Source: Roseivivax sediminis (GTDB lineage: Bacteria > Pseudomonadota > Alphaproteobacteria > Rhodobacterales > Rhodobacteraceae). Taken from it: a stretch of 64,000 bases of DNA. Of this stretch, positions 11,316-58,779 are shown piece by piece. Made by a program: the position numbers and the translations under genes. The DNA lies in contig NZ_FOMS01000003.1 of assembly GCF_900112685.1 (NCBI RefSeq), positions 248,001 to 312,000 of the forward strand, given 5' to 3'. The notes beneath the pieces are model-generated. The model saw nothing but the letters and a program-made list of their open reading frames with translations, searched no databases and was not told where the DNA came from. Position 1 is the first letter of the stretch. Every line of letters begins with the position of its first letter.

Positions 11316-12823
11316 GCGGCGACCTCTGTCTCGCCGGTGGCGGCGTGCATGATGTCGCGCTCGGTGGGACCGTGCGGGAATTCGGCGGCGATCCGGCCTT
11401 CCTGCATCACCAGGATGCGGTCGGCGGCGCCGATGACTTCCGGCAGGTCGGAGGAGATCATCAGGATCCCCGCGCCGCCGCGCGCGAGGTCGCGCATCAG
11501 GTGGTAGATCCCGGCCTTGGCGTTCACGTCGATGCCGCGCGTCGGTTCGATGAAGATCAAGAGCTTGGGGCGCATCGACAGCCAGCGCGCGACGATGGCC
11601 TTCTGCTGGTTGCCGCCCGACAGCGCGCGGATGTCCTGATCGTAGGAGGCAGCGCGGATCTCCATGCGGTCCAGCAGTTCGTCGATCCGCGCGAGGTCGG
11701 CCTGCGCGGTGCGCTTGTGGCTCGACCAGAGCGGCGCGAAGGCGCGGGGCGTCAGCATCCCGTTGTCGCGCACCGACTGCATCAGCACGAGCCCCTCGCT
11801 CTTGCGGTCGCCGGGCAGCAGGCCGATCCCGGCCTCGATCGCCTCGCGCGGGGTGCGGAAGGACACGCGCTCTCCGGCGAGCGTGACCTCGCCGGTCTCG
11901 AACGGCTCCTGCCCGAACAGCGCCATGGCGAGCGCCACGCGGCCCGCGCCCTGGATTCCGGCCAGCCCGACGATCTCTCCGGCGCGCACGGACATGTCGA
12001 TGCCGTGCAGGTGCGCGTTGCCGCCGCCGGTGACCGTCAGGACCGGATCGCCGATCTCGGCCTCGGTCGCGGGCGGGGCGTAGAAATCCGCGATGTCGCG
12101 GCCGACCATGGCGTGCACGATCTCGCCCGGCTCGGGCACGGCGTCGAAGCGCGCCGCGACCTCGCCGTCCTTGAGGACGGTGACGCGGTCGGCGAGGCGC
12201 GCGATCTCGCGCATCCGGTGGGTGATGTAGATGATCGCGACGCCGCGCTCGCGCAGGCGGTCGACGGTGGTGAAGAGTTCCTCGCACTCAGCGTCGTTGA
12301 GCGCGGCGGTGGGCTCGTCCATGACGATCACGCGGGCGTCGTGCGACACCGCCTTGGCGATCTCCACCATCTGCTGGGTGGCGACATCGAGTGTGCCGAC
12401 CGCGCGCCCCGGGTCGATCCGCCCGCCGGTGGCGAAGAGGTCGAGCACCTTGCGCGTCTCGTCGTGCATGCGCCGCTCGTCGATGAGGCCGAAGCGGCCG
12501 CGCGGCTCGCGCCCGAGAAAGAGGTTCTGGGCGACGCTGCGCTCGGGCAGGAGGGAAAACTCCTGGTAGATCACCGCGATCCCGGCGCGGAGCGACTCCA
12601 CGGGATGCGCGAAATGCACCGGCTCCCCGCCCATCCGGACCTCGCCGGCATCGGCATGGTAGACGCCCGAGAGGATCTTGATCAGCGTCGACTTGCCCGC
12701 GCCGTTCTCGCCCACCAGTGCCTGCACCTCGCCGGGGCGGACGTCGAAGCTCACTTCCGACAGCGCGCGTACGCCGGGGAAGGTCTTGGTGATGCCCTGC
12801 ATCTCGATGACGGGGGCGGTCAT
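11312..12823 (-). CDS. Sugar ABC transporter ATP-binding protein, two domains (RbsA type)
   Basis: At 503 aa this is the usual double-domain size. The first domain has Walker A GENGAGKS, Walker B VIVMDEPTAALND and the switch His in YITHRM. The second has the degenerate Walker A GIQGAGRV typical of RbsA/XylG, then LSGGNQQKAIVARWL and IFIEPTRGIDVNAK. The start MTAPVIEMQGITKTF at 12823 overlaps the stop of the epimerase gene. It powers uptake through the two permeases that follow. Confidence 0.89.
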   Translation of the reverse strand: MTAPVIEMQGITKTFPGVRALSEVSFDVRPGEVQALVGENGAGKSTLIKILSGVYHADAGEVRMGGEPVHFAHPVESLRAGIAVIYQEFSLLPERSVAQNLFLGREPRGRFGLIDERRMHDETRKVLDLFATGGRIDPGRAVGTLDVATQQMVEIAKAVSHDARVIVMDEPTAALNDAECEELFTTVDRLRERGVAIIYITHRMREIARLADRVTVLKDGEVAARFDAVPEPGEIVHAMVGRDIADFYAPPATEAEIGDPVLTVTGGGNAHLHGIDMSVRAGEIVGLAGIQGAGRVALAMALFGQEPFETGEVTLAGERVSFRTPREAIEAGIGLLPGDRKSEGLVLMQSVRDNGMLTPRAFAPLWSSHKRTAQADLARIDELLDRMEIRAASYDQDIRALSGGNQQKAIVARWLSMRPKLLIFIEPTRGIDVNAKAGIYHLMRDLARGGAGILMISSDLPEVIGAADRILVMQEGRIAAEFPHGPTERDIMHAATGETEVAA

Positions 12824-20778: not shown

Positions 20779-21681
20779 ATGGCCCCACGCGCCGTCTGGA
20801 AGGGGCAATTGCGCCTCTCGCTCGTCTCCATCCCGGTGGAGGTCTATCCGGCCACCACCTCCGGCCCGCGCGTGTCGTTCCGGCAGATCCACGAACCCTC
20901 CGGCAAGCGCGTGCGCTACGAGAAGACCGTGAAGGGCGTCGGCCCGGTCGACAGCGACGATATCGTGAAGGGCTACGAGACCGAGGACGGCGACTACATC
21001 CTGATCGACCCCGAGGAGATCGACGCGCTGAAGGTGGAGACCTCCAAGACGCTGGAGCTTGTCCAGTTCGTCGAGAGCGGGGAGATCCCGCCGATCTACT
21101 TCGAGCGCCCGTACTACATCGTCCCGCAGGACGAGCTGGCCGAGGATGCCTACCGCGTGGTGCGCGACGCGCTGCGGGGCGAGGGCAAGACGGCGCTCTG
21201 CCAGATCACGCTGCGCGGCAAGGAGCACCTCGCCGCGATCAGGCCCTGCGGCGACGGGCTGCTGCTGGAGACGCTGCGCTACGAGGAAGAGATCCGCAGC
21301 GCCGATCCGCTGTTCAGCGAGATCGCCGACGAGGAGGCCGACGAGGAACTGCTCGACCTCGCGCGCGAGCTGATCGGCCGCAAGACGAAGCCGTTCGACG
21401 CCTCCGCCTTTTCCGACAGCTACCACAAGGCTCTGAAGGAGATGATCGAGGCCAAGCGCAAGGACAAGTCGACCTCCCGCGTCGATACCGGGGACGACGA
21501 CGGCGGGGACGACGGCGACAACGTCGTCGACCTGATGAGCGCGCTGCGCAAGAGCGTCGATGCGTCAGAGGGCAAGTCCGGCGGCAAGGGCGGCCGCAAG
21601 TCGTCGGGTCGCAAATCCTCGGGCAGCTCCAAGTCGAAATCTTCCTCCGGCGGGTCGCGGTCGAAGAAGAAGGCGTCGTGA
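20779..21681 (+). CDS. ku: Ku protein for non-homologous end joining
   Basis: The 300-aa bacterial Ku homologue has a beta-barrel core at residues 1 to about 230: WKGQLRLSLVSIPVEVYPAT at the start, then FRQIHE, KGYETEDGDYILIDPEEI and YYIVPQD. A low-complexity Ser/Gly/Lys tail (about 265-300) follows, of the kind that aids DNA binding. Ku dimers hold broken DNA ends and recruit LigD, whose gene starts at the last base of this stop codon. A stress-sigma-like promoter lies upstream, so the pathway is probably induced in stationary or stressed cells. Confidence 0.95.
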   Translation: MAPRAVWKGQLRLSLVSIPVEVYPATTSGPRVSFRQIHEPSGKRVRYEKTVKGVGPVDSDDIVKGYETEDGDYILIDPEEIDALKVETSKTLELVQFVESGEIPPIYFERPYYIVPQDELAEDAYRVVRDALRGEGKTALCQITLRGKEHLAAIRPCGDGLLLETLRYEEEIRSADPLFSEIADEEADEELLDLARELIGRKTKPFDASAFSDSYHKALKEMIEAKRKDKSTSRVDTGDDDGGDDGDNVVDLMSALRKSVDASEGKSGGKGGRKSSGRKSSGSSKSKSSSGGSRSKKKAS

Positions 21682-24122
21682 TGGCCGACCGGCTGAAGGA
21701 CTACAACGCCAAGCGCGACTTCACCCGGACGAGCGAGCCGCGCGGCCGGGCCGGGCCGCAGAAGACGGAAGGGCGCTGGTTCTCGATCCAGAAGCACGAC
21801 GCCTCTTCGCTGCATTACGATCTGCGACTCGAACACGACGGGGTGCTGCTGTCCTGGGCCATCCCCAAGGGGCCGTCGCCGCGCACCGGCGACAAGCGGC
21901 TGGCGCAGCGGACGGAGGACCATCCGCTCGACTACGGCGATTTCGAAGGGACGATCCCGAAGAAGGAATACGGCGGCGGCACGGTGATGCTGTGGGATCG
22001 CGGCACCTGGGCCCCGCGTGGCGATGTCGGCGAGATGCTGGAAGACGGCAACCTCAAGATGGACATCGCCGGGGAACGGATGCGCGGCGGTTGGGCGCTC
22101 GTGCGCTTCAAGAAGGGCGGGGAGGGCGCATGGCTCCTGATCAAGGAGAAGGACGATTACGCCCAAGGCGACGCGGACGCGCTGACCGAGGGGTACGAGA
22201 CCTCCGTCGTCACCGGCCGCGACTTCGAGGAGATCGCGCAGAAGGCAAAGGCGAAACGCATGAAAGACGACGTGCCCAAGCGCAGCCGCAAGGCCCCGAA
22301 ATTCCGCAGCCCCCAGCTCGCCACGCTGGTCGAGGAGGCGCCCGAGGGCGACGGCTGGCTGCACGAGACCAAGTTCGACGGCTACCGCGCGCTCGCCGCG
22401 ATCGGCAAGGGCGGGGTGACGCTCTGGACCCGCAGCGGCAAGGACTGGACCGAGAAGTTTGCGGCGCTCGCGGGCGCCTTCGATCCCTTGCCCTGCGACA
22501 GCGCGCTCCTCGACGGGGAGGTGATGGCGGCGAAGATCCGCGGCTCGGCGTTCTCGTCGCTGCAGCGGGCGCTGTCGAACGGCGGGGATCTGGTGTTCTT
22601 CTGCTTCGATCTGCTGGAGGTCGACGGCGAGGACCTGACCGGCGCGGCGCAGGAGGATCGCCGCGCGCGGCTCGAGGAGCTGTTTCGCGGCGTGCCGGAC
22701 GACGGCCCCTTGCGGATCACCGATCAGGTGCGCGGGCAGGGGCCGGAGATCTTCGCCGCCGCCTGCAAGGCCGGGGCGGAGGGGATCGTCTCGAAGAAGG
22801 CGGACGCACCCTATCGCGGCACACGCACGAAGACTTGGCGCAAGGTGAAATGCGTGAATCGGCAGGAATTCGTCGTCGGCGGCTTCACCCGGTCGGACAA
22901 GGACCGGCCCTTCGCCTCGCTGCTGGTGGGGGAATACCAGGACGGCGATCTGATCTATCGCGGGCGCGTCGGCACCGGGTATTCGCAGGACGATCTCGCG
23001 GCGTTGTCGGAGGGCTTTCGCTCGCGCAAGACCTCGCCTTTCGAGGAGGTGCCGAAGGAGATCGCCTGCAATGCGGTCTGGGTCACGCCGGACACGGTGA
23101 TCGAGGTCGAGTTCACCGAACTGACCGAGGACGGCCATATCCGCCACGGCGCCTACCAGGGCACCCGCACCGACAAGGAGGCGAAAGAGGTGGGCGCGGA
23201 GACCCCCGCCGATACGGAGAGCGAGGGCAAGGTGGCCGGTATCTCCATTTCCAGCCCCGACCGGGAGGTCTTCCCGGCCTCGGGCTGCACCAAGCTCGAC
23301 GTTGCACGGCATTACGAACGGGCAGGCGAGCGGCTGACCGAGATCGCGGGCCACCGGCCGCTGTCGCTGTTGCGGGCGCCCACGGGGATCGAGGGCGAGA
23401 CCTTCTTCCAGAAGCATGCCGGCAAGGGCTTTCCGGACGCGCTGGAAGAGATCGAGATCGAGGAATCGGGGGGCAAGCGCGGCACCTACATCTATGCCAC
23501 GCGGCCCGAGGCGTTCGTCGCCGCCGCGCAGATGGGCACGATCGAGTTCCACATCTGGGGCAGCCGCACCGACCGGCTGGAGCGGCCCGACCGGCTCGTC
23601 TTCGACCTCGATCCCGACGAGGGGCTGGGCTGGGGCGACGTGCGCTCGGCGGCGTTCGACCTCAGGGACAGGCTAGCCGATCTCGGGCTGGCTTCAGGGG
23701 CGCTGGTGACCGGCGGCAAGGGCGTGCATGTCTGGCTGCCGCTGCACCGCAGCCACGACTGGGACGTGGCGAAGACCTTCGCCAAGACGCTCGCGCACGT
23801 GATGGCGGAGGCGGAGCCGAAGCGCTTCACCGCGACCATGTCGAAGGCGAAGCGCAAGGGCCGGATCTTCATCGACTGGCTGCGGAACGAGCGCGGCGCG
23901 ACGGCTGTGGCGCCCTATTCGGTGCGCGCCCGCCCCGGCGGTCCGGTCGCGGTGCCGGTCACCTGGGACGAGCTGAATGGCCTCGAGGCGCCGAACGGTT
24001 TCGACATGGGCGCGGTCCGCGAGCGGCTGGAGGACCCCTGTTCCTACCTCGCGATGGCCGGCGATCTGCAGCGTCTCACGTCGGACGTGGTGGACCGGCT
24101 GGAGGCGTGGCAGCGCCGGTAG
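21681..24122 (+). CDS. ligD: Multifunctional DNA ligase LigD (phosphoesterase-ligase-polymerase)
   Basis: The 813-aa protein has the order typical of rhizobial LigD: an N-terminal 3'-phosphoesterase (about 10-155; HYDLRLEHDGVLLSWAIPKG), the ATP-dependent ligase (about 200-510; adenylated Lys231 in ETKFDGYRA, later VSKKADAPYRG) and a C-terminal primase-like polymerase (about 530-800; FDLDPDEGLGW, with the paired Asp). It repairs double-strand breaks with Ku: ends are trimmed, filled and sealed. The ATG at 21681 overlaps the ku stop (TGATG), so the two proteins are made together. Mycobacterial LigD has a different order (polymerase first). Confidence 0.95.
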   Translation: MADRLKDYNAKRDFTRTSEPRGRAGPQKTEGRWFSIQKHDASSLHYDLRLEHDGVLLSWAIPKGPSPRTGDKRLAQRTEDHPLDYGDFEGTIPKKEYGGGTVMLWDRGTWAPRGDVGEMLEDGNLKMDIAGERMRGGWALVRFKKGGEGAWLLIKEKDDYAQGDADALTEGYETSVVTGRDFEEIAQKAKAKRMKDDVPKRSRKAPKFRSPQLATLVEEAPEGDGWLHETKFDGYRALAAIGKGGVTLWTRSGKDWTEKFAALAGAFDPLPCDSALLDGEVMAAKIRGSAFSSLQRALSNGGDLVFFCFDLLEVDGEDLTGAAQEDRRARLEELFRGVPDDGPLRITDQVRGQGPEIFAAACKAGAEGIVSKKADAPYRGTRTKTWRKVKCVNRQEFVVGGFTRSDKDRPFASLLVGEYQDGDLIYRGRVGTGYSQDDLAALSEGFRSRKTSPFEEVPKEIACNAVWVTPDTVIEVEFTELTEDGHIRHGAYQGTRTDKEAKEVGAETPADTESEGKVAGISISSPDREVFPASGCTKLDVARHYERAGERLTEIAGHRPLSLLRAPTGIEGETFFQKHAGKGFPDALEEIEIEESGGKRGTYIYATRPEAFVAAAQMGTIEFHIWGSRTDRLERPDRLVFDLDPDEGLGWGDVRSAAFDLRDRLADLGLASGALVTGGKGVHVWLPLHRSHDWDVAKTFAKTLAHVMAEAEPKRFTATMSKAKRKGRIFIDWLRNERGATAVAPYSVRARPGGPVAVPVTWDELNGLEAPNGFDMGAVRERLEDPCSYLAMAGDLQRLTSDVVDRLEAWQRR

Positions 24123-25605: not shown

Positions 25606-25890
25606 ATGGCCCCCAGACCCGACTTGTCCCAACTCAGAACGCCGGAAGGCAATCTGGTCGGCCCGGAAGAACTGCAGGAACTCATGGCCGAACAGGGGTA
25701 CTCGGCCGGCGACCGGTACCAGTTTCTCAAATCCGTGCTGACGGAGCTCGACCGCGCCGAGTCCGTCGGTGATGTCGGCCGGGCCGAGGAGCTTTCGGCC
25801 GAGATCCGCAGGATTCTTTCGAACGAACAGGAAAAGCTGCGGGGCACCACCACGCCGGAGCCGCCGCGGCGCGGCGGCGGCGGATCGTGA
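25606..25890 (+). CDS. Hypothetical 94-aa protein of the stress island
   Basis: I do not recognise this protein. A strong ribosome site (AAGGAGG, four bases before the ATG) and even codon use support it as real. It is charged and probably helical in the middle (LQELMAEQGYSAGDRYQFLKSVLTELDRAE), with a Pro/Arg/Gly tail (PEPPRRGGGGS) that is probably disordered. No signal peptide or membrane segment is present. It lies alone between the MFS gene and the receiver/sigma-like gene, both neighbours of stress-response genes. Confidence 0.7.
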   Translation: MAPRPDLSQLRTPEGNLVGPEELQELMAEQGYSAGDRYQFLKSVLTELDRAESVGDVGRAEELSAEIRRILSNEQEKLRGTTTPEPPRRGGGGS

Positions 25891-25990: not shown

Positions 25991-26015
25991 GGAACCTTCA
26001 GACAGGTGCGGCGTT
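25991..26015 (+). promoter_or_regulatory. Consensus EcfG promoter of the receiver/sigma-like gene
   Basis: GGAAC (25991-25995), exactly 16 bases and CGTT (26012-26015) give the full alphaproteobacterial general-stress consensus. Transcription should start near 26022, about 53 bases before the ATG at 26075. It is the only promoter-like signal I see in the 184-base gap. Confidence 0.75.
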
Positions 26016-26074: not shown

Positions 26075-26662
26075 ATGGACATGCACGGACGAAAGATACT
26101 GGTCGTCGAAGACGACTTCCTGCAGGCGCAGGAGATCGGGAATTTCTTTCGCACCACCGGTGCCGATGTGCTCGGACCTGCCCTGACCCTAGGCGACGCG
26201 ATGGGGCACATCCACTCCGCCGATGCGGCGATCCTCGATCTCGACATATCCGGCGACGCCGTGTTTCCGGTGGCCGAAGCCCTGGCCCGGCGGGACGTGC
26301 CCTTCGTATTCTATACCGGTCGCCGCCACGACGTTCCCGTGCCGAACGCCCTGCGGCACGCCGAGATCTTCTCCAAGCCGGTCTCGGTGCAGGATCTGGG
26401 CCGCGCGGTCGACCGGCTCCGGGCGCCGGACGAGTCGGCTGCGGACAGCGTCGAGCAATGCCTGCCGCTCCTGCGCGCCTGGTCGCGGCTGCTGCTGTCC
26501 GATCCGGCCAGCGCCGACCGGCTTGTGGAACGCACGTTGCTGGAAGCGATCCGGGCCGTGCGCGAGGGCGAACTGCCGGACGGGGCGCAGTCGCGCATGG
26601 ACTGGCTCTACCGTAAATGCGAGACCGTTCTGGTCCGCGACGGCACGCGGCTGATGCACTGA
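26075..26662 (+). CDS. Receiver domain fused to a sigma-region-2-like tail (inverted PhyR-like)
   Basis: The 195-aa protein starts with a complete receiver domain (5-118): acidic Asp13-Asp14, phospho-acceptor Asp55 in AAILDLDISG, Thr81 in VFYTG and Lys101 in FSKPV. The FYTG segment recalls the FAT-GUY receivers (MrrA, SdrG) of the alphaproteobacterial stress response. Residues about 127-192 align with region 2 of the EcfG at 32915. Over LPLLRAW...LLEAIR I count 17 identities in 31 positions, and a WL pair matches further on. The protein ends there with no region 4. PhyR has the reverse order. It lies tail-to-tail, 12 bases from the HWE kinase gene, and has AAGGAGG before the ATG. A NepR-binding sigma mimic switched by phosphorylation is my inference. 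Confidence 0.8.
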   Translation: MDMHGRKILVVEDDFLQAQEIGNFFRTTGADVLGPALTLGDAMGHIHSADAAILDLDISGDAVFPVAEALARRDVPFVFYTGRRHDVPVPNALRHAEIFSKPVSVQDLGRAVDRLRAPDESAADSVEQCLPLLRAWSRLLLSDPASADRLVERTLLEAIRAVREGELPDGAQSRMDWLYRKCETVLVRDGTRLMH

Positions 26663-26674
26663 CCGCCGGCGCGG

Positions 26675-29600
26675 TCAGGACCACACGTCCTGCGGGTCTT
26701 TCCGTGAAAACCGGATCGACACCTGCAGGCCCTCGGGGCGGAACTCGCGCTCCAACTCGCCGCGAAGCTGCTGGCACACCTGGCCTTCGATCAACTGCCA
26801 GCCGAAGCCGTCGGCCTCGGGTTCGGACGTTGCCGGTCCGCCGGTTTCGCGCCAGTCGATGCGGACGATGTCGTCCGTCACGCTCCAGCGGATATGGACG
26901 CATCCCGTATCGCAGGTCAGCGCGCCGTATTTCGCGGCGTTCGTGGCAAGTTCGTGGATCGCCAGCCCCACGGGCAGCGACTTGCGCGACGAAAGCGAAA
27001 GATCGGGCCCCTCGATGGCGAAGCGCGCGGGGTCGTGGGCGTGGCATTCCTGCTCGATCAGCGCGTGCAGGGATATCTCGCGCCATTCCTCCTGCGACAG
27101 GAGCTTGTAGGTGCGCGCCATGCCGTGCAGCCGGTCGTTCAACGCCGCGCCGAATGCGTCGGGATCGCGGGTGCTGCGCAGGGTCGCGTTCACGACGCTG
27201 ATGACCACCGTCAGGATGTTCTTGACCCGATGGTTGAGCTCGTCGATCAGCAGGCGCTGGTTTTCCTCCGCGCGGGCAAGACTGGTCATGTCGATCAGCG
27301 TCACGACCACGCCGTCGATACCGTTGTTCTTGTCGCGATAGGGTACCAGCCGGACGACGAAGCGGCGCGCATCGTCCTTCGGACGCACCCGGTCCTCGAT
27401 CATCTCTCCGCTCGACAGGACCTCCTGCAGTCGCTCGCGGAATTCCGGGTAATCGAGTGTCAGGGCCAGGTCGCTGAGCGGCCGGCCCACGTCGTTCCGC
27501 CGCAGGTGGAAGAAGGTCAGCGCCGCGGGCGTGAAGTTGCGGATCACGAGGTCGGTGTCGAGGAACACGCTGGCTATCTGCGTCGCCTCGTAGAGGTTGC
27601 GCATGTCGTCGTGGGCGCGGTCGAGCTCCTCGAGCTTGCTGCTGAGGACGGCGTTGGTCGATGACAGCTCCTCGTTGAGGGTCTGCATCTCCTCCTTGGA
27701 GGCTTCGAGTTCCTCGTTGGCCGATTGCGCTTCCTCGTTGGCGGAGACGAGTTCCTCGTTCGATGATTTCAGCTCTTCGAGCGCGGTTTCGTATTCCTCG
27801 ATCGTGGAATGCATGCGTTCGCGCAGCTCGCGCAACTCGGTCTCGTAGGTGTCCTCATCGTGCCCGGAGGCGTCCGAGCGGCTGTCCGATGCGCCCCGCC
27901 GCCCGGTGGGCACGAAGAGCGTGAGGTACACCGTCTCCGCGCCGCGCTCCATGTGGATGGGCTCCACCGTGAGGCGCAGCTCGGTGTCCTGGCCGTCCTC
28001 GTCGGAGACGTGGACCGCGTTGCGGTGGGCGGGCAGCCCGCTTTCCATCGCCTCGCGCAAGACGGTGTTCAGCTCCTGCCGCAGCTGGCGGGGGGTCATG
28101 TCCAGAAGCCGACGGTTGGGTGCGCCGCGCGGGATCTCGAGAAAGCGGCCGACGCGGGCGGAATAATAGACGATTTCTCCGTGCCGGTCGACGACCACAT
28201 GCGGCGGCGCGTGCCGGTCGAGGACCTGCATCTCGACCCGTTGGCGGAGCTGGAAGCTTGACCGGGACGGGCTGGGCTGGGACCGCCCGATATGCAGCTT
28301 TCCGAGGCCCTCCGCGCCGCCTCGGAACGCGTTCGGAACGCCGGGATGCGAAGTCGTCGTCTCGCGGCTGCGGAAGATCCGCTGCTGGCGGTCCACCGGT
28401 GCGAAGAGCGCATCCTGCCGGCTGATGCTCTCGGAGGTGCCGAGGAACAGGTAGCCGCCGGGTTTCAGCGCATAGTGGAACGTGGGGATCACCTGGTCCT
28501 GCAGGTCGCGTCCGAAATAGATCAGCAGGTTGCGGCAGGACAACAGATCCATCCGCGCGAAGGGCGGATCCGAGATCACGCTGTGCGGCGAGAAGATGCA
28601 CAGATCGCGCACTTCCTTGCGCACGATGTATTGCGTCCCCTCGCGACGGAAGGCGCGGTCGCGGCGCGCGGGGTCGATGGAGGAGACGAATTCCTCGGGA
28701 TAGCGGCCGGCGCGCGCGACGTCGAGCGCCGGCTCGTCGATATCGGTGGCGAAGATCTGCGCGTGCGGCCCGCCCGGATGCCGCTCCATCTCCTCGCGCA
28801 GGAGGATGGCGATCGAATAGACCTCCTCGCCTGTGGCGCATCCCGGCACCCAGACGCGCACCACGTCGCCGGATGTGCGGCCCTGGAACAGCTGGGGGAT
28901 GACGTTCTCTTCCAGCGCGGCGAAGGCGTCGGCATCGCGGAAGAACCGCGTGACGTTGATCAGCAGGTCGCGGTAGAGTTCCATGACTTCGGTCGGGGCA
29001 TTGCGCAGGTGCCGGATGTAGTCGGTCAGCGTCGACGCCTCGACGATCTGCGCCCGGCGCGACATGCGGCGCAGGAAGGTCCGTTTCTTGTAGCCCGAGA
29101 AATCGTGCCCGGTATGGCTGCGCAGTAGGTCGAACGCGGTCTGCATCTCGGTGTCGAGCGCGCCGTCGTCCCAGGTGTCGGCCAGCGCCTCGAAGGAGGT
29201 GCGGCTGTCCACCAGCCGGCGCAGCGTCTCCGGCATGCTCTCGACCGTGAGCTCGAAATCGACCAGACCGGTGGCGATGGCGCTTCTGGGCATGTCGGCA
29301 TGGCCGGGTCCGCGCCCGCCATCCGGCGCTTGCGCCATGGTGATGCCGCCGCTTTCCTTGATCGCCTTGATGCCGAGCGTGCCGTCGGCATCGCTGCCCG
29401 ACAGCACGATGCCCACAGCCCGGTCCCCGCGGTCCCGCGCGAGCGAGGAAAAGAAGATGTCGATGGGTTTCTCGCGCGCCTCGGGCCTGGTTACCCGATC
29501 GAGAGCGATGCGCCCGTCGCGCAGTCGGATCACGCAGGCCTCGGGCATCACGTGGACCTGACCCGCGCTCAGCGTCGCGCCGTCCTCGGCAGCGCGTACC

Positions 29601-29785
29601 TCGATATCGGCGTGCCTGCCGAGCACCTCGTGCAGTCGGCTCTCGTGATCGGGGTTGAGGTGGGTGACCACAACGAGGGCCATGTTCCGCGGCGCCCCGA
29701 GATTGCGAAAGAAGGTCTCCAGCGCCTCGATGCCGCCGGCCGATGCGCCGATGCCCACGACCGTCAGTTCCTGTCCTGTCGTCAT
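26675..29785 (-). CDS. CheB-CheR-PAS-HWE hybrid sensor kinase
   Basis: This 1036-aa protein has five parts. A CheB methylesterase domain (about 1-190) carries GIGASAGGIEAL and VLSGSDADGT. A CheR methyltransferase domain (about 205-475) carries VWVPGCATGEEVYSIAILL and FSPHSVISDPPFARMDLLSCRN. A PAS-like segment (about 540-640) and a long coiled coil (about 665-755, repeats like SSNEELVSANEE) follow, then a second PAS (about 760-835). The C-terminal HWE/HisKA_2 kinase has phospho-acceptor His852 in LIDELNHRVKN and an ATPase region with HELATNAAKYGAL. HWE kinases of this kind feed PhyR in alphaproteobacteria. It lies tail-to-tail with the receiver/sigma-like gene, its probable partner. No membrane segment is seen, so it is cytoplasmic. 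Confidence 0.88.
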   Translation of the reverse strand: MTTGQELTVVGIGASAGGIEALETFFRNLGAPRNMALVVVTHLNPDHESRLHEVLGRHADIEVRAAEDGATLSAGQVHVMPEACVIRLRDGRIALDRVTRPEAREKPIDIFFSSLARDRGDRAVGIVLSGSDADGTLGIKAIKESGGITMAQAPDGGRGPGHADMPRSAIATGLVDFELTVESMPETLRRLVDSRTSFEALADTWDDGALDTEMQTAFDLLRSHTGHDFSGYKKRTFLRRMSRRAQIVEASTLTDYIRHLRNAPTEVMELYRDLLINVTRFFRDADAFAALEENVIPQLFQGRTSGDVVRVWVPGCATGEEVYSIAILLREEMERHPGGPHAQIFATDIDEPALDVARAGRYPEEFVSSIDPARRDRAFRREGTQYIVRKEVRDLCIFSPHSVISDPPFARMDLLSCRNLLIYFGRDLQDQVIPTFHYALKPGGYLFLGTSESISRQDALFAPVDRQQRIFRSRETTTSHPGVPNAFRGGAEGLGKLHIGRSQPSPSRSSFQLRQRVEMQVLDRHAPPHVVVDRHGEIVYYSARVGRFLEIPRGAPNRRLLDMTPRQLRQELNTVLREAMESGLPAHRNAVHVSDEDGQDTELRLTVEPIHMERGAETVYLTLFVPTGRRGASDSRSDASGHDEDTYETELRELRERMHSTIEEYETALEELKSSNEELVSANEEAQSANEELEASKEEMQTLNEELSSTNAVLSSKLEELDRAHDDMRNLYEATQIASVFLDTDLVIRNFTPAALTFFHLRRNDVGRPLSDLALTLDYPEFRERLQEVLSSGEMIEDRVRPKDDARRFVVRLVPYRDKNNGIDGVVVTLIDMTSLARAEENQRLLIDELNHRVKNILTVVISVVNATLRSTRDPDAFGAALNDRLHGMARTYKLLSQEEWREISLHALIEQECHAHDPARFAIEGPDLSLSSRKSLPVGLAIHELATNAAKYGALTCDTGCVHIRWSVTDDIVRIDWRETGGPATSEPEADGFGWQLIEGQVCQQLRGELEREFRPEGLQVSIRFSRKDPQDVWS

Positions 29786-29972
29786 GTCTGTCCAATCGCG
29801 GGGCGTGCGACGCGGCGGCACGCCCCGCGGCACGTTGTCCGCGCCGGGCGCTGCCGCTGGCTGTCACTTTGGGTCGCTCGTCACCATCCTGACCTGTCGC
29901 AACGGCCGCGTAAACCGCGCCGCGCCGCTAAACCGCCCGGTACGGCGGACGGCGCGGCGGGGACGGGCCGGG

Positions 29973-30197
29973 TCAGGCGCGTGCCTCCACGCCGGCCTTG
30001 CGCGCGCAATGCCCGCAGCAATAGACGCTGTCGCCCGCTTCAAGCCCGTGCCCGATCACGCGGGTGGCGCACTGGGCGCAGCGCGGGGCCATCTTCTCGA
30101 TCGCGCATTCGAAACAGTCGAAGCCGAAGCGCTGGCCGTTCTTCTCCACGATCATCAGGTTGTCGTAGTCGTTTTGGCACTGGTCGCATCGCGCCAT
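29973..30197 (-). CDS. Small zinc-ribbon protein, 74 aa
   Basis: The product is cytoplasmic and rich in paired cysteines: CDQC at the start, CFEC, CAQC and CCGHC near the end, with one His. This is enough for two zinc sites in a LIM- or ribbon-like fold. A near-perfect ribosome site (AAAGGAGG) precedes the ATG. I do not recognise a named family. It is divergent from the SDR stress gene and could be a small redox or protein-binding factor of the stress response. Confidence 0.75.
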   Translation of the reverse strand: MARCDQCQNDYDNLMIVEKNGQRFGFDCFECAIEKMAPRCAQCATRVIGHGLEAGDSVYCCGHCARKAGVEARA

Positions 30198-32914: not shown

Positions 32915-33421
32915 TCAGGTCCGGACCGGCTCGCGCTCCAGGTCGTCTGCCACGAGCTTTCGGGCGCGGTTCACCCGGCTCTTGACGGTGCCCATCGTGC
33001 AGCCGCAGATCTCTCCGGCGCGTTCGTAGGTCTCACCCAGCATCACCACCAGGATCAGCATCTCGCGGTAATGCGTGGGCAGCCGGTCGATGGCGGCCAT
33101 CATTTCCTGCCCCCGGATCGTCCATTCCTGCGTGGCGGGGGCGGACACCGAGTCCGCGACGCAATCGGCCGCGCCGGTCACCTCGCGCCTTGCGCGCCGG
33201 ACATCGTTGAAGAAGGTGTTGCGCATGATGGCGAAGAGCCAGGCGCGCAAATTCGTCCCGGGTTTGAACTTTTCACGGTTGCGAATGGCCTTGTGCAGCG
33301 TCTCCTGCACGAGGTCATCGGCATTCGCGTCGTCGCGGGTCAGGGACCTTGCATAGGCCCTCAGAGCCGGGATCCACTCCACCGTCTGTTCGACGTCGAG
33401 GCATTCGTCCTGATCAAGCAT
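32915..33421 (-). CDS. ecfG: EcfG-family general-stress sigma factor
   Basis: The 168-aa protein is an ECF sigma factor. Region 2 (about 12-75) has DDLVQETLHKAIRN and NLRAWLFAIMRNTFFNDVRR. Region 4 (about 105-160) has LPTHYREMLILVVMLGETYERAGEICGCTMGTVKSRVNRAR. The short acidic N-terminus, the NLRAWLF block and the NepR-like gene upstream mark it as the EcfG/RpoE2 group. I start it at the ATG at 33421; an in-frame extension to 33493 reads through unlikely sequence. It should drive the GGAAC-type promoters found across the island, including its own at 33667-33692. Confidence 0.85.
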   Translation of the reverse strand: MLDQDECLDVEQTVEWIPALRAYARSLTRDDANADDLVQETLHKAIRNREKFKPGTNLRAWLFAIMRNTFFNDVRRARREVTGAADCVADSVSAPATQEWTIRGQEMMAAIDRLPTHYREMLILVVMLGETYERAGEICGCTMGTVKSRVNRARKLVADDLEREPVRT

Positions 33422-33666
33422 CGCTGTGCCCTGTATTCGCTTTCCTGCCGACGCGCCCGGATCGGACATGCCTGGAGAGGGCGCGACACGCATGTGCCGC
33501 GGCGTCCGCGGACTGTCGTGCGCGGAGATCTTCGCTCATCGGAAATGACCGAATCCGGAGCCAGCGCGGCCAATGTGGCCAAACCTCCTTTGGGCACTTC
33601 GGCCCGAAGAAGTTCATCTGATCGCCTCGCAATCCGGCACCGCAGGTCGGGCGCCCCCGACGGATC

Positions 33667-33692
33667 AACGTGGTGTGCGCCCGCAGGGTTCC
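33667..33692 (-). promoter_or_regulatory. EcfG promoter of ecfG itself
   Basis: On the minus strand GGAAC (33692-33688), 17 bases and CGTT (33670-33667) give a perfect match, placed between the NepR-like gene and ecfG. The leader is about 240 bases. It implies positive autoregulation of ecfG independent of the gene upstream. The remaining 279-base gap shows no other gene. Confidence 0.7.
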
Positions 33693-33700
33693 GTCTCGCG

Positions 33701-33865
33701 TCAGGGCCTGTCGCGTAGCAATCCCTGCAACTCTCGCGCGAGCTTGAGCAGGTGATCGGGCGTCTCTTCCGCCGCGATCCGCTCCAGTTGCCGGGCGAGG
33801 GCGCTGTCCATCTCCTGGGAGGCGCAATCGGGCGTCTCACCAGAGGGTTTATGCGGTCTCTTCAA
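33701..33865 (-). CDS. nepR: NepR-like anti-sigma factor (TTG start)
   Basis: A 54-aa protein is read from a TTG at 33865 with AGGAG seven bases upstream. Residues about 19-52 (MDSALARQLERIAAEETPDHLLKL...) fit the NepR pattern of a leucine-rich helix, an acidic turn with Pro-Asp, and a second helix LLKLARELQGLL. The N-terminus is basic and probably disordered, as in NepR. Position also fits: nepR normally precedes ecfG on the same strand. NepR binds and silences EcfG until phosphorylated PhyR pulls it away. The gene is short and lacks an ATG at the right place, so the call rests on pattern and place. Confidence 0.65.
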   Translation of the reverse strand: MKRPHKPSGETPDCASQEMDSALARQLERIAAEETPDHLLKLARELQGLLRDRP

Positions 33866-34702: not shown

Positions 34703-35356
34703 TCAGGTAGACGCGCCCGGAGCCGACGCCTCGGACCCGCCCGCGGGCGGATCGCTGATCCGTAGGTTGTTCTGCACATGGACCACACCGCTCACATGGT
34801 CCGCGCAATCCTCGGCCCGCCGCTTGGAGGCGCGATCGCGGACATACCCGTCGAGGGTGACCTCGCAGTCGCGCACGGTGACCTCGATATCCGTGGCGTC
34901 GAGCATGGGATCCTCGGTCAGGTCGTCGTTCACGTCCTCGGCGATGCGGGTGTCGGAGCGGCGGTAGTTGCGCGGGCCGACACCGGTATAGTCCCGGTCG
35001 CGGCGGCGCGCGGCCTCCTCGTCGCCGATCCAGGTGGCCAGCTCGTCGCGGGCGCGGTCGAGGAACGACCGCTCCGCGCGGTGCCGTCGGGGCTGGCCGA
35101 TCGGGCCGGCCCAGGGCCAGGCGACGGTTTCGGGGGCGACCTCCGGCCCGGGCCAGGGATCGGCGCCGAGACGCGGATCGCGGCGCATTGCCCGTTCGCG
35201 TTCGATCTCGCGCATGCGTTCGGCACGTTCGGCCTCGATATCCTCTGCGCCGGCGGGCTGCGGATCGGCGGGGTCTGCGCGCCGGTGCAGGCCGCGTTCG
35301 GTTTCGGGGTCGTAATGCTGGTCGGACCAGGCTCTGAAGCTCGATTTCTGCGACAT
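34703..35356 (-). CDS. BON-domain protein
   Basis: The 217-aa protein has a long, charged N-terminal part rich in Arg, Glu and Pro (about 1-130) and one C-terminal BON domain (about 135-200; RIAEDVNDDLTEDPMLDATDIEV then VTLDGYVRDRASKRRAEDCADHVSGV). BON domains bind membranes or other envelope parts, as in OsmY. There is no signal peptide, which is unusual for OsmY-type proteins but common in alphaproteobacterial stress genes. AAAGGAA is the ribosome site. It follows the CBS gene by 38 bases. Confidence 0.83.
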   Translation of the reverse strand: MSQKSSFRAWSDQHYDPETERGLHRRADPADPQPAGAEDIEAERAERMREIERERAMRRDPRLGADPWPGPEVAPETVAWPWAGPIGQPRRHRAERSFLDRARDELATWIGDEEAARRRDRDYTGVGPRNYRRSDTRIAEDVNDDLTEDPMLDATDIEVTVRDCEVTLDGYVRDRASKRRAEDCADHVSGVVHVQNNLRISDPPAGGSEASAPGAST

Positions 35357-35394
35357 GGGGCTGTTCCTTTCGCAGGCGTGTCGGATCATGGCAT

Positions 35395-35820
35395 TCAGCC
35401 GGTGGCGCGTGCCTCCTCGACGACGTCGCGCAGGGCGCCGCCGGCGGTTTCCTCGTTGCTGTGCCGTGCGATATCGCCGAGCGACAGCATCCCCACGAGG
35501 CGCTTGTCGCGGTCGAGGACCGGCAGGCGGCGGATCTGCTCGTCGCCGAGGTTGGAGGCGACGTCGATGATATCGTCGTCCTCGCGGCAATAGCGCACCG
35601 CCGGGGTCATCGCGTCCCGCACCGGTGCCTCGGTGCCGTGACCCTTTGCGAGGCCCCGGACAACGATGTCGCGGTCGCTGAGCATTCCGACGAGGCGGTC
35701 GTTCTCTTGTACCGGCAGGATGCCGATGTCCGAGGATGCCATGATCTCGGCCGCCTCGCGCAGGCTGCGGCCGGGCGTGATCGTCACGGGTGCGGACGTC
35801 ATGAGCTGCTGGACATTCAT
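35395..35820 (-). CDS. Two-CBS-domain protein
   Basis: The 141-aa protein is a tandem pair of CBS motifs and little else: VQQLMTSAPVTITPGRSLREA with GILPVQENDRLVGMLSDRDIV, then VRDAMTPAVRYCREDDDI with RRLPVLDRDKRLVGMLSLGDIA. Such pairs bind adenosine nucleotides. The start at 35820 has AAAGGAGA upstream and removes a doubtful N-terminal extension. It heads a probable CBS-BON-DUF421 operon under the EcfG-like promoter just before it. Confidence 0.88.
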   Translation of the reverse strand: MNVQQLMTSAPVTITPGRSLREAAEIMASSDIGILPVQENDRLVGMLSDRDIVVRGLAKGHGTEAPVRDAMTPAVRYCREDDDIIDVASNLGDEQIRRLPVLDRDKRLVGMLSLGDIARHSNEETAGGALRDVVEEARATG

Positions 35821-35862
35821 CGGGCGGTCTCCTTTCGCCGTGTCAGCGTCTGGTCCGCCCAT

Positions 35863-35888
35863 GAACAACGCCGCCGCCCCTATGTTCC
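35863..35888 (-). promoter_or_regulatory. EcfG-like promoter of the CBS-BON operon (GGAACAT...TGTTC form)
   Basis: Read on the minus strand, GGAAC (35888-35884), 16 bases and TGTT (35867-35864) repeat the 26-base GGAACAT-N14-TGTTC layout of the SDR and symporter sites. The CBS start is 43 bases downstream. Confidence 0.6.
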
Positions 35889-35974: not shown

Positions 35975-37096
35975 CTAGCCCGTCGGTTCGGTCTGACGGC
36001 GGGCCGGGACCGCGCGGTGGACGAGCGGCGCGTCGGACACCGAATGGGCGGCGGCCTGCGCCTGCAGCGCGCCGTGATGGGGCGACTTCACGCAGACCGG
36101 ATCGGTCGCGTCCGGGTCGCCGACAACCGCCATCGCCTGGCAACGGCAGCCGCCGAAATCGACGGTCTTGCGCGCGCAGGACCGGCACGGCTCCTGCATC
36201 CAGTCGGTGCCGCGATAGGCGTTGAACGCCGCGCCGCGATACCAGATGTCGGCCAGCGGGCGGTCCGCGACGTTGTCGAAGCTCAGATGCGGGATCGATT
36301 CCGCGGCGTGGCAGGGCAGCACCTTGCCGTCCGGCGCGACGTTGAGGCCCGTGGACCCCCAGCCACCCATGCAGCGCTTGGGATAGTCCGAATGGTAATC
36401 GGCCGGTACGTAGTCGATGACCAGCGTGCCTTTCAGCCGCGCGCGCGCCTCGGTCACGATCCGGTCGGCCTCGCGCGCCTGCTCCATCGTCGGCATCAGC
36501 GCGCCGCGATTTTTCAGCGCCCAGCCGTGGAACTGCACGGTCGCGACCTCGATCCGGCGCGCGCCCATCTCCACGGCCATTTCCAGCGCGCGGGGCAGCT
36601 GGTGCAGGTTGCGCCGGTGCAGGACCGCGTTCAGCGTCAGCGGAAAACCGATGGCGCCGATCCACTCGGCCACCTGCATCTTGCGCTTGAAGCCGCCGTT
36701 GTAGCCGCCGATCTCGTCGGCCATCTCGGGCGTCGTGCCCTGCAGGCTGAGCTGCACGTGGTCGAGCCCGGCCTCGTCGAGCGCGCGCAGCCGTTTTTCG
36801 GACAGCCCGATGCCGGAGGTGATGAGGTTGGTGTAGAGCCCCGCATCGCGCGCGGCGCACACCAGGTCCTCCAGGTCGCGGCGCGAGGCGGGCTCTCCGC
36901 CCGAGAGGTGCAGTTGCAGCACGCCAAGGTCGGCGGCCTGGCGGAACACGTCCTTCCAGGTCTCGGTGCTCAGCTCGCTGTCCACCCGCGCCAGTTCAAC
37001 GGGGTTGGAGCAATAGGGGCAGGACAGCGGGCAGCGATGGGTCAGCTCGGCCAGCATGGCGATGGGCGGGCGGACGATCGGCGTCTCGGCGTTCAT
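35975..37096 (-). CDS. pqqE: PQQ biosynthesis radical-SAM enzyme PqqE
   Basis: The 373-aa protein is a radical-SAM/SPASM enzyme that links Glu and Tyr side chains in the PqqA peptide, the first step of pyrroloquinoline quinone synthesis. The SAM cluster cysteines are in CPLSCPYCS (from about residue 22). Further blocks are LQLHLSGGEPASRRDLEDLV, CMGGWGSTGLNVAPDGKVLPCHAAE and a C-terminal auxiliary-cluster set CRSCARKTVDFGGCRCQA. About 30 residues after that are Ala- and Arg-rich and non-conserved. Its start overlaps the pqqD stop. Confidence 0.95.
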   Translation of the reverse strand: MNAETPIVRPPIAMLAELTHRCPLSCPYCSNPVELARVDSELSTETWKDVFRQAADLGVLQLHLSGGEPASRRDLEDLVCAARDAGLYTNLITSGIGLSEKRLRALDEAGLDHVQLSLQGTTPEMADEIGGYNGGFKRKMQVAEWIGAIGFPLTLNAVLHRRNLHQLPRALEMAVEMGARRIEVATVQFHGWALKNRGALMPTMEQAREADRIVTEARARLKGTLVIDYVPADYHSDYPKRCMGGWGSTGLNVAPDGKVLPCHAAESIPHLSFDNVADRPLADIWYRGAAFNAYRGTDWMQEPCRSCARKTVDFGGCRCQAMAVVGDPDATDPVCVKSPHHGALQAQAAAHSVSDAPLVHRAVPARRQTEPTG

Positions 37097-37368
37097 TCTC
37101 GGACCTCCAGGAACCGGCGCGCGCGCAGGGCGCCCAGAAGGCCGGCGCAGTCGCCGGCGATCTCGTCCTGCGGCGCGTCGTATTTGGCGGCGAGCGCGGC
37201 GGTGATCTCCGAAAAGCTTCGCGCGCCGTCGATTTCGGTCAGTACGGCGTGGCCGATCTCGTCCAGCATGATCGCCCGTTCGGGCGCCAGCAGCACCCAT
37301 GCCTCGCGCACCCGGTCGCGGTGCAGGCGCACGCCGCGCGGCAGGTAGGGGATCGCGGCGGGCTCCAT
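37093..37368 (-). CDS. pqqD: PqqD, peptide chaperone for PqqE
   Basis: This 91-aa protein has the usual length. It contains YLPRGVRLHRDRVREAWVLL, then PERAIMLDEIGHAVLTEIDG and the C-terminal helix block CAGLLGALRARRFLE. PqqD binds the PqqA peptide and presents it to PqqE. It overlaps pqqC upstream and pqqE downstream, which keeps the partners in balance. Confidence 0.93.
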   Translation of the reverse strand: MEPAAIPYLPRGVRLHRDRVREAWVLLAPERAIMLDEIGHAVLTEIDGARSFSEITAALAAKYDAPQDEIAGDCAGLLGALRARRFLEVRE

Positions 37369-38117
37369 CAGGCGGCCCGCGCGTCCAGAAGGCCGGTGCC
37401 CGGCTGCCAGCCGCCCGGCGGGATGCGCCCGGGCTCCACGTAGGCCGCCCAGAGCGCGTCGAGCTGCGACCAGAGCACGTCGGTCTTGAAGATAAGCGCT
37501 TTTGCAGCGGCGTCCTGCTTTTCCTGCGTGTCGGCGTGGTCGAGCACCCAGCCGAGCCCGAAGGCGACATCCTTCGGCGCCTCCTTCAGCCGGTTGCGGA
37601 AGTAGGACAGCGAGGAATCGTCCGCGAAGTCGTAGTTCTTCAGGAGCCCCTCGATCCGGCTGGCGTGGATCTTCGGCGCGAAAAGCTCGGTGAGCGAAGC
37701 GGCCACGGCCTCCAGGAGCGTTTTTTCGCGCACGAAGCGGACATAGGCGTCCACGGCGAATTTCGTCGCCGGCAGCACGCCCGTCCGGGAGGCGACGTAG
37801 TCGGGATCGAGGCCCACCGCCTCGGCCAGCCGCAGCCAGCGGCGGATGCCGCCCTCGTTGTCCTCGGTACCGTCGTGATCCTCGATGCGCGAGCGCCAGG
37901 CGCGGCGCAGGGCGGGGTCCTCCACCCGCGACATGAAGGCGGCGTCCTTCATCGGGATGGAATGCTGGTAGTAGTAGCGGTTGATGACCCAGGCACGCAC
38001 CTGATCGGGGGTGCAGTCGCCGCCGTGCAGCCGGTCGTGGAACGGGTGCAGGTCGTGATAGCGCTCGGCGCCGATCTGGCGCAGGCGGGCCTCGAAATCC
38101 TCTCGGGTCTGGGTCAT
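37368..38117 (-). CDS. pqqC: PqqC, PQQ synthase
   Basis: The 249-aa protein is an all-helical oxidase of the TenA/haem-oxygenase fold that closes the ring and carries out the final oxidation of PQQ without a metal or cofactor. Recognisable segments are YHDLHPFHDRLHGG, VRAWVINRYYYQHSIPMKDA, RIEDHDGTEDNEGGIRRWLRL and LTELFAPKIHASRI. The ATG at 38117 overlaps the pqqB stop; the longer open frame upstream is pqqB read out of frame. Confidence 0.95.
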   Translation of the reverse strand: MTQTREDFEARLRQIGAERYHDLHPFHDRLHGGDCTPDQVRAWVINRYYYQHSIPMKDAAFMSRVEDPALRRAWRSRIEDHDGTEDNEGGIRRWLRLAEAVGLDPDYVASRTGVLPATKFAVDAYVRFVREKTLLEAVAASLTELFAPKIHASRIEGLLKNYDFADDSSLSYFRNRLKEAPKDVAFGLGWVLDHADTQEKQDAAAKALIFKTDVLWSQLDALWAAYVEPGRIPPGGWQPGTGLLDARAA

Positions 38118-39010
38118 AGCGCGATCTCCATGCCGTCCTGTCCGATGGTCCAGCCTGCGGCTTCGACCTCCGTCCGCTCGGGCGATCCGGGGCGCAGGAC
38201 GGGGTTGGTGTTGTTCATGTGGACGAAGACCTTGCGGCCCACGTCGAGCCCCTCGAAAGCGGCGATGGAGCCATCCTCGCCGCTCATCGACATGTGGCCC
38301 ATGCGCCGGCCGGTCTTCTGCCCGAGCCACGCCGCGATCATCTCTTCGTCGTGCCAGAGCGTGCCGTCGAAGAAGACCGTGGAAGCGCCGGAAAGCCGCG
38401 TGCGCAGGTCGCCGGTCAGCTCGGCGCAGCCGGGGATGTAGAACGCGCGGCGGTCGCCTGCGGTCAGTTCCACCCCAACCGTCTGCTCGCCCAGCATCTC
38501 GGTCTCGACCGTCTCGCCCTCCATGTAGAGCGGCACCTTGCCCGGCACCGCGAAGAGGGTCGCGGTCAGGCCCGGCGCGATCTCGGCGGGCGTGTCGAGC
38601 GCGACTTCGGCGCGGGTCACGACATCGCGGCGCAGCGCGTCGAAGATCGGATTCTGGGCCAGCACCTCGTGGATGCCGCGCGTGGCGAAGAGCGTGAAGG
38701 GCTGCACCTCGCGCAGCGTCAGAAGGCCCGCCACGTGGTCGATGTCGCCATTGGTCAGAAGGACAGAGCGCAGCGGCATGTCGCGCAGGCCGGTCGGGTG
38801 CAGCGGCGCGTTGCCCGCGATCTGCTGGCGGATATCGGGCGAGGCGTTGAGGATCGCCCAGTCGGTGCCGTTCGCGGTGACGGCGAGAGAGGATTGCGTC
38901 TGTGCCGGGATCTTCCCGGCCCGCGCCATCGCGCAGTTCTTGCAGCCGCAGTTCCATTGAGGGAGGCCGCCGCCGGCGGCCGCCCCCAGAATCAGCGCGC
39001 GGAATTCCAT
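38114..39010 (-). CDS. pqqB: PqqB, metallo-beta-lactamase-fold protein
   Basis: The 298-aa protein has the PqqB opening LILGAAAGGGLPQWNCGCKNC, with its zinc cysteines, and the metallo-hydrolase region LTNGDIDHVAGLLTLRE, where the usual HxHxDH is reduced to DxDH as is normal for PqqB. It hydroxylates the cross-linked tyrosine in PQQ synthesis. It begins 25 bases after pqqA. Confidence 0.94.
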   Translation of the reverse strand: MEFRALILGAAAGGGLPQWNCGCKNCAMARAGKIPAQTQSSLAVTANGTDWAILNASPDIRQQIAGNAPLHPTGLRDMPLRSVLLTNGDIDHVAGLLTLREVQPFTLFATRGIHEVLAQNPIFDALRRDVVTRAEVALDTPAEIAPGLTATLFAVPGKVPLYMEGETVETEMLGEQTVGVELTAGDRRAFYIPGCAELTGDLRTRLSGASTVFFDGTLWHDEEMIAAWLGQKTGRRMGHMSMSGEDGSIAAFEGLDVGRKVFVHMNNTNPVLRPGSPERTEVEAAGWTIGQDGMEIAL

Positions 39011-39035
39011 TGTCGTCCTCCCGCGCGACGGCCGA

Positions 39036-39125
39036 TCAGAACAGGACGCCGCCTTCGTCCGGGCCGTACATGTTGATTTCCATGCCGCACTCGATTTCGC
39101 GGATGACGGGCTTCTTCCATGCCAT
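39036..39125 (-). CDS. pqqA: PqqA, precursor peptide of PQQ
   Basis: The 29-aa peptide begins MAWKKPVIREIECGMEINMY and ends GVLF. The Glu16-x3-Tyr20 pair (MEINMYG) supplies the atoms of PQQ. Length and the WKKP start are typical. GGAGG lies eight bases before the ATG. Too short for ordinary gene calling, it is certain from its sequence and its place directly before pqqB. Confidence 0.95.
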   Translation of the reverse strand: MAWKKPVIREIECGMEINMYGPDEGGVLF

Positions 39126-39190
39126 GGTAAGGTCCTCCCTCATGGGCTGTGTGAACGGGAAAATCATGCAGCAGAACCCGGGAACGTGGC

Positions 39191-58753: not shown

Positions 58754-58779
58754 GGAACCGGGGTCGCCCGCGTCACGTT
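58754..58779 (+). promoter_or_regulatory. EcfG promoter of the FNT gene, nearly symmetrical
   Basis: GGAAC (58754-58758), 17 bases and CGTT (58776-58779) match the consensus on the + strand, 67 bases before the FNT start. The same DNA read on the minus strand gives GGAAC (58781-58777), 17 bases and GGTT (58759-58756), one base off, so it might also fire towards the LysM gene. Confidence 0.65.

Follow-up and report, generated by a model that had tools for sequence, protein, structure and literature searches.

A receiver-first protein with a sigma-region-2-like tail in a putative second stress switch of Roseivivax sediminis

Results

Genes of the locus

The window (the whole stretch of 64,000 nucleotides of Roseivivax sediminis DNA that was analysed) contains on its forward strand a gene, 26075..26662, coding for a protein of 195 amino acids in which a receiver (about aa 1-118) is followed by a variable linker and a sigma-region-2-like tail (about aa 125-195). 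This protein is called REC-sigma2 here. The DNA reads AAGGAGG immediately upstream of its ATG; a spurious ORF or a wrong frame is excluded by this good ribosome site and by the conservation of the protein. The HWE kinase that had been predicted to lie tail-to-tail with it is present on the reverse strand (26675..29833). It has a CheB-CheR-PAS-HWE architecture and the motif HRVKN (Pfam and motif reading), and thus combines an HWE domain with HRxxN, the motif described as a hallmark of these stress kinases in passages of two papers (PMC5898713, PMC8103513). Also on the reverse strand are the genes for an EcfG-like ECF sigma factor, ECF2 (32915..33493, for which a start at 33421 agrees better with the Roseivivax relative), and for a NepR-like protein, NepR2 (33701..33865, core aa MDSALARQLERIAAEETPDHLLKLARELQGLL, with a possible TTG start and GGAG upstream). 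Kinase, sigma factor and NepR-like ORF all lie within 8 kb of REC-sigma2. BON-like and CBS-like genes recognised from sequence (34703..35868, reverse strand) adjoin the module. The kinase of Roseivivax marinus has the same tail-to-tail placing as in the window, and annotated BON and CBS genes follow the module there.

Several other genes were noticed by sequence recognition. Ku-like and DNA ligase D-like genes (20779-24122) stand just before the module, and pqqE-, pqqB- and pqqA-like genes occupy 35975-39167. A LigD-like relative is also found beside the ECF2 gene of genome G051 (L104 8164-10905). Two small ORFs, 25606-25890 (94 aa) and 29973-30197 (74 aa, Cys-rich), have look-alikes by eye around the module of Roseivivax (L133 14370-14639 and 12892-13116, respectively).

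The receiver and the sigma-2-like tail

The receiver had been predicted to be complete, and Asp55, Thr81 and Lys101 were all found; judged from these residues, it would be phosphorylatable. The predicted reversed order was likewise seen with Pfam, which placed a receiver at aa 8-112 and sigma-2 at aa 126-180, both matches on the whole protein being below cut-off (21.2 bits against 30.2 for the receiver, 25 bits against 27 for PhyR_sigma2). In PhyR, sigma-2 and sigma-4 come first and the receiver last, an order that REC-sigma2 does not have, and the curated PhyR-family model NF006623 gave it 40.5 bits, short of the cut-off of 240. Nor is it a receiver only, as the single-domain FAT GUY regulators are, since it carries the sigma-2 tail. 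Structure prediction from an alignment of three sequences gave a receiver and a helical tail (mean pLDDT 83.3, pTM 0.79) joined by a weakly predicted linker (pLDDT near 52-55). The best solved relatives of the protein are SdrG 5ieb and 2lpm, and the single PHROGs match was weak and lay over the receiver. In a Foldseek search the whole protein matched receivers and proteins that contain one, and therefore the tail was folded and searched separately.

The tail (26447..26659, forward strand) consists of three helices and stops shortly past the conserved Trp. Its supposed relation to sigma region 2 held in a profile search with the tail alone, in which PhyR_sigma2 (PF22029) matched at 27.5 bits, over the cut-off of 27 (E 3.3e-6). 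Sigma70_r2 gave 16.8 bits, below its cut-off, and Pfam found no region 4 on the tail, as had been noted originally. It should be noted here that PF22029 also scores true EcfG-like factors highly, so that this match alone does not indicate PhyR. The tail reads ADRLVERTL at the place where EcfG-like factors read ADDLVQETL. Recounting of the best block agreed with an earlier hand count of 17 of 31 residues identical to the EcfG-like factor of the window. The Smith-Waterman score of these two was 82, and 2000 shuffles of the tail gave a mean of 27.9 (sd 5.0) and a maximum of 54; a chance match is excluded, as no shuffle reached 82. Folded alone, the tail formed three helices (pLDDT 83.6, pTM 0.74), and the structures nearest to this predicted fold are those of sigma-2 and PhyR. 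The best 26 of 37 Foldseek matches in the PDB were all sigma-factor or PhyR chains, the complexes PhyR-NepR 3t0y and RpoE-NepR 5uxx being among these 26, and TM-scores over the query reached 0.77, with a best E-value of 0.11 and none at or below 0.001.

REC-sigma2 is a recurring family

The protein is not a single odd case, and 21 REC-sigma2 proteins from at least three alphaproteobacterial orders could be aligned. These are from the window, Roseivivax marinus (57% identical to the window protein), Carideicomes (two copies), Halovulum marinum, three genomes of the window's family, Shinella, Martelella, Mesorhizobium, two Ensifer, Sinorhizobium chiapasense, Tistrella, five Paracoccus and Ketogulonicigenium. 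They were chosen by hand from match lists at about one per species and form a non-random sample; 14 of the 21 come from a plasmid collection, and since plasmids were searched, their frequent occurrence there is not a rate. Asp55 is found in 20 of the 21 proteins, Lys101 in all, Thr or Ser at position 81 in 20 and acidic residue 13 in 20, and every tail contains A-[DE]-x-[LV]-V. In genome G018 the protein is without Thr/Ser81 and without one acidic residue. The two Carideicomes copies apparently belong to one genome (L007 1541-2116 and L103 6700-7272); in one of them the phospho-Asp at position 55 is replaced by Glu, which may fix this paralogue in an on or off state. Mean pairwise identity is 0.425 in tail helices 1-2, 0.393 in the receiver, 0.119 in the linker and 0.209 in helix 3 and the end of the tail. 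The idea of a decaying tail was dropped, helices 1-2 being slightly more conserved than the receiver. When PhyR_sigma2 was run on 15 whole family members, 12 matched at E <= 0.01, three of them above the cut-off; one of the others gave E 0.049 and two had no match.

The family is rare and patchy. Among 394 genomes of the same family, 5 had full-length REC-sigma2, as did 4 of 385 drawn from the class; the window's own is included each time, and a receiver with a recognised tail was counted. Profile A1 had been built from five members, four of them in genomes which it then found among the 394, so that the independent finds are G217 and a second G272 copy in the 394 genomes (G272 apparently being the same assembly as the Carideicomes record) and G410, G427 and G652 in the 385. 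The sole other genome of the window's genus among the 394 drawn had no full-length REC-sigma2. On plasmids, tblastn found a single place covering at least 80% of the query in 29 of 436 matching records, and a search for related loci gave three, two of which have the tail. In Rhizobium sp. ACO-34A (L139 5980-6569) two overlapping ORFs code separately for receiver and sigma-2 tail, which may be a natural split or a frameshift.

Linkage to NepR2, ECF and kinase genes

All 21 loci were scanned with flanks of 1.5-12 kb (20 kb for the window), NepR2 being sought with leave-one-out profiles at 15 bits or more and sigma factor and kinase with phmmer. It was found that NepR2 lies near REC-sigma2 in 16 of the 21 loci, within 0.6 kb in 11 of them and 4.4-7 kb away in five, the window among these. 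An ECF gene, each time nearer ECF2 than EcfG1, was present in 11 loci, and an HRxxN kinase in 11. Within the DNA fetched, 10 of 21 loci had no ECF gene, 10 had no HRxxN kinase, and 5 had no HMM-supported NepR2, namely the first Carideicomes copy (near a contig end), G051, Paracoccus Arc7, Paracoccus MA and P. liaowanqingii. A NepR2 candidate of the last failed the leave-one-out scan and was not counted. G051 has an ECF2 gene and a NepR2-like ORF elsewhere in its genome, and in Halovulum ECF2 is about 18 kb off on the same contig. The arrangement varies. Sigma factor, REC-sigma2 and NepR2 are adjacent genes in G018, as are REC-sigma2, NepR2, sigma factor and kinase in Ketogulonicigenium, and NepR2 directly precedes REC-sigma2 in the two Ensifer, S. 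chiapasense and G217. The kinases also vary by Pfam: those of the window, Roseivivax and Ketogulonicigenium are CheB-CheR-PAS-HWE, that of Tistrella is PAS-HWE. Genes for catalase, ferritin-like proteins and glycogen or trehalose enzymes were seen near some REC-sigma2 loci.

NepR2 is a divergent NepR by profile homology

The Pfam NepR model (PF18557) does not detect the window NepR2, and it matches 1 of 11 NepR2 members (E 0.00038). The NepR-like ORF of the original prediction was nevertheless upheld by profile homology and leave-one-out scans. When 15 NepR2 cores were compared with 13 canonical NepR by hhalign, E-x-x-P came into register and the probability was 93.9%. The score was 31.1; 200 column permutations gave none above 13.5. 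Global alignment lowered the probability to 49%. The training set was chosen by eye with a motif. On leave-one-out, 14 of 15 training loci returned a NepR2-like ORF at a locus E <= 4e-5, although close kin (three Ensifer/Sinorhizobium) stayed in each other's training sets. NepR2 was also found outside the training set in Halovulum, Martelella and Tistrella, and the Paracoccus AK26 NepR2, a training-set ORF of over 160 aa, scored 24.9 bits when the length filter was removed. The NepR2 profile, which contains no canonical NepR, gave 24 matches of at least 8 bits among 4011 small ORFs of 121 other loci. Six of them are NepR2-like ORFs that adjoin ECF2-type genes; the other 18 rows are NepR of the canonical type, several being copies of one gene and some of the loci having been fetched by the NepR model; on reading the 24 sequences, none was of a non-NepR kind. 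Taken by its profile homology, NepR2 is a divergent NepR.

In six loci (L107, L108, L110, L112, L113 and L121) a NepR2-like ORF is in the same stretch as an ECF2-type gene, in genomes for which no full-length REC-sigma2 was detected; the antagonist there is perhaps a tail-less receiver. Beside the ECF2 gene of G051 there is a second, canonical-looking NepR-like ORF (L104 11059-11508) in addition to the NepR2-like one (11541-11813).

ECF2 and promoter-like sites

ECF2 has both sigma regions, 2 and 4, by Pfam and is 43% identical to the canonical EcfG of the genome. Among the best 25 of 82 models, in a set that has no ECF15 model, only the general sigma70-ECF model TIGR02937 passes (76.6 over 42.9). 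Identity of the window ECF2 to its matches is 62-67% in the REC-sigma2 carriers G272, G051, G018 and Halovulum, but only 46% in carrier G217, and it falls to 42% in the genome of the genus that has no REC-sigma2. Matches at E <= 1e-57 occur in 13 of the 394 genomes, among them four of the five carriers; the hypergeometric P for this co-occurrence is 3.5e-6, with the cut set after the list was seen. In nine of the 13 genomes full-length REC-sigma2 was not found, and a close ECF2 is missing from carrier G217.

The EcfG promoter consensus claimed ahead of REC-sigma2 is present as a predicted site, GGAAC-N16-CGTT, on the forward strand at 25991..26015, 59 nt before the ATG. A second EcfG-type promoter-like site, GGAAC-N17-CGTT, is on the reverse strand at 33667..33692, 173 nt upstream of the longest ECF2 ORF, and a third exact GGAAC-N17-CGTT is at 58754-58779, shortly before ORF 58847-59719. 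Three such sites were found in the window against 0.71 expected, and 5 of 100 shuffles had at least three. Across the loci, GGAA[CT]-N15-18-CGTT was present within 300 nt upstream of 4 of 13 ECF genes (one of which had 116 nt upstream) and 3 of 21 REC-sigma2 genes, start codons being partly chosen by hand, and in 1.65% of random segments. Strict sites within 300 nt upstream were found for none of 17 NepR2 and none of 8 kinase genes.

A canonical locus in the same genome

Contig C16 of the same genome contains PhyR (sigma-2, sigma-4, receiver), NepR and EcfG, arranged as usual and adjoined by a HisKA_2/HWE kinase. It had been stated that no normal PhyR is in the window, and this is so among the six PhyR_sigma2 matches of the genome; one is present elsewhere, and REC-sigma2 cannot be taken as a stand-in for a missing PhyR. 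The REC-sigma2 module is therefore additional. Original prediction had also allowed that a normal phyR elsewhere might carry all the function. Such a gene does exist. The module, however, comes with a NepR-like gene and a sigma gene of its own, which leaves no reason to credit the canonical PhyR with all the work.

Origin of the receiver and the tail

Original prediction had seen in REC-sigma2 a shortened, inverted PhyR. A tail profile aligned by hhalign scored 77.0 with ECF2 sigma-2, 68.9 with EcfG1 sigma-2 and 43.1 with PhyR sigma-2, these sets keeping the rows with the anchor pattern (22 of 23, 16 of 21 and 18 of 19, respectively), and 20 of the 21 tails scored higher on the ECF2 than on the PhyR profile, the exception being G051. 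In a sigma-2 tree of 70 columns, in which few forks were resolved, the tails form one clade (99/99) and PhyR another (100/100). The receivers of REC-sigma2 fall into two clades of 12 and 9 amid single-domain and hybrid-kinase receivers, with weak support for the intervening forks, and PhyR receivers form a clade of their own (100/99), apart from them in the best tree. The same 12 members make up a clade in the receiver tree and in the sigma-2 tree; receiver and tail thus seem to have moved as a unit. As the tail is nearer the EcfG-type sigma and the receiver nearer single-domain regulators, REC-sigma2 is probably not a rearranged PhyR, and descent from PhyR is not supported as it was put. The AU test rejects neither tail and PhyR as one clade (p 0.498) nor receiver and PhyR as one clade (p 0.122). 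An inverted PhyR that has lost sigma-4 and works in a PhyR-like way, a history that would be compatible with a second switch, is therefore consistent with these tests, and is made unlikely by the profile scores and by the separate clade of PhyR receivers. The notion that the tail is necessarily PhyR-derived was rejected, the profile scores speaking against it; the trees are compatible with a common origin. Rhizobium sp. BG4 (L143 3941-4975) has an EcfG-like gene immediately preceded, on the same strand, by the gene of a single-domain receiver. If two such genes fused, the order of REC-sigma2 would result, which is offered as a suggestion only.

Discussion

Our data favour the view, which we hold to be fairly probable, that the locus codes for a second, self-contained partner switch of the general-stress type, apart from canonical PhyR-NepR-EcfG. 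Its observed base is the domain order, the homology of the tail to sigma-2, the intact phosphorylation residues, the homology of NepR2 to NepR and the recurrent linkage. The binding steps, the direction of the switch, the pairing of kinase and receiver and the activity of the promoters are inferred from these. At rest NepR2 would hold ECF2. Under stress the CheB-CheR-PAS-HWE kinase would become active and phosphorylate Asp55 of the receiver, and this phosphorylation would free the sigma-2-like tail, which by mimicking sigma region 2 would take NepR2 off ECF2. The freed ECF2 could then direct transcription of its stress genes and, through the GGAAC-N16/17-CGTT sites, of its own gene and that of REC-sigma2. 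The absence from REC-sigma2 of region 4, half of the PhyR mimic, is counted against such a switch. Of the original prediction, the half-size, receiver-first sigma mimic stands, and it likely works in a NepR/EcfG-type partner switch; PhyR descent is not supported as it was put.

REC-sigma2 could instead act on the canonical switch, its tail binding the NepR of C16 as an accessory or competing anti-anti-sigma and thereby cross-wiring the local kinase to EcfG1. The genome does have the complete canonical locus, and NepR paralogues of Methylobacterium bound PhyR and no sigma factor in the assay described in part of one paper (PMC4814048). This is nonetheless improbable given that 16 of the 21 REC-sigma2 genes are near a NepR2 gene of their own. 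Slightly less credit still is given to a single-domain regulator of the FAT GUY type, in which the tail would be a remnant or a mere dimer contact and phosphate would be passed between kinases or regulators, as proposed for the SdrG type. The placing of the receiver amid single-domain and hybrid-kinase receivers, the solved relatives SdrG 5ieb and 2lpm, and a tail-less receiver gene about 6 kb from an ECF2 gene in G091 agree with it, whereas the conservation of tail helices 1-2 at the level of the receiver, with a linker that is far less conserved, and the motif in all 21 tails argue against it. That the tail acts as a repressor, a decoy sigma-2 bound to RNA polymerase or to the sigma factor itself, is very hard to credit in spite of its homology to EcfG-type sigma-2, since DDLVQ of region 2.2 is DRLVE in REC-sigma2 and the part past the conserved Trp is shortened, and it is region 2.2 and the part past this Trp that contact core polymerase and the -10 element.

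The proposed second switch resembles known systems in part. Like PhyR, REC-sigma2 joins a receiver to a sigma mimic with intact phosphorylation residues and is linked to NepR-like, EcfG-like and HRxxN kinase genes. It differs in having the receiver first and the mimic last, in having sigma-2 without sigma-4, in that receiver and tail are each nearer other families, and in its own divergent NepR2. NepR2 shares with NepR (PF18557) a helix, an E-x-x-P-[DE] turn and a helix in register, and a place beside an EcfG-like gene; however, it is missed by the Pfam model and has L-A-x-x-L-Q where canonical NepR has L-L-x-x-L. The SdrG-type single-domain regulators are alike in receiver type and give the best solved-structure matches, but have no sigma tail. 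ECF2, being an additional EcfG-type sigma factor encoded outside the canonical locus, is comparable to the non-canonical paralogues R. etli EcfG2 and S. meliloti RpoE5. An unannotated NepR-like ORF on the opposite strand of the next gene is described for RpoE5 in a portion of PMC6180224, and according to passages of PMC3892343 no response regulator or anti-sigma gene was found near EcfG2, while the window ECF2 has both nearby. Two PhyR paralogues and crystal structures are described in PMC12148442, where the term inverted refers to light logic. In agreement with the original prediction, no described case of a receiver-first PhyR was recognised in searches of open-access full texts, subscription literature lying mostly outside this scope.

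It is tentatively proposed, at somewhat less than an even chance, that REC-sigma2 is a second, independent invention of sigma-factor mimicry, in which a single-domain receiver was fused before an EcfG-type region 2 to give a phosphorylation-gated anti-anti-sigma for which half a sigma fold is enough. Joined by a divergent NepR, an EcfG-like factor and an HRxxN kinase, which is often of the CheB-CheR-PAS type, it would make a portable stress module, carried on many plasmids and controlling non-canonical EcfG paralogues. If the second switch is true, region 2 alone suffices for sigma mimicry and the receiver can occupy either side. Many Alphaproteobacteria have additional EcfG sigma factors, and for most of their control there is no explanation, as far as passages of three papers go (PMC3892343, PMC6180224, PMC4814048). 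For this control the module gives a named regulator and a named anti-sigma, and REC-sigma2 may be the missing switch for the extra stress sigma factors.
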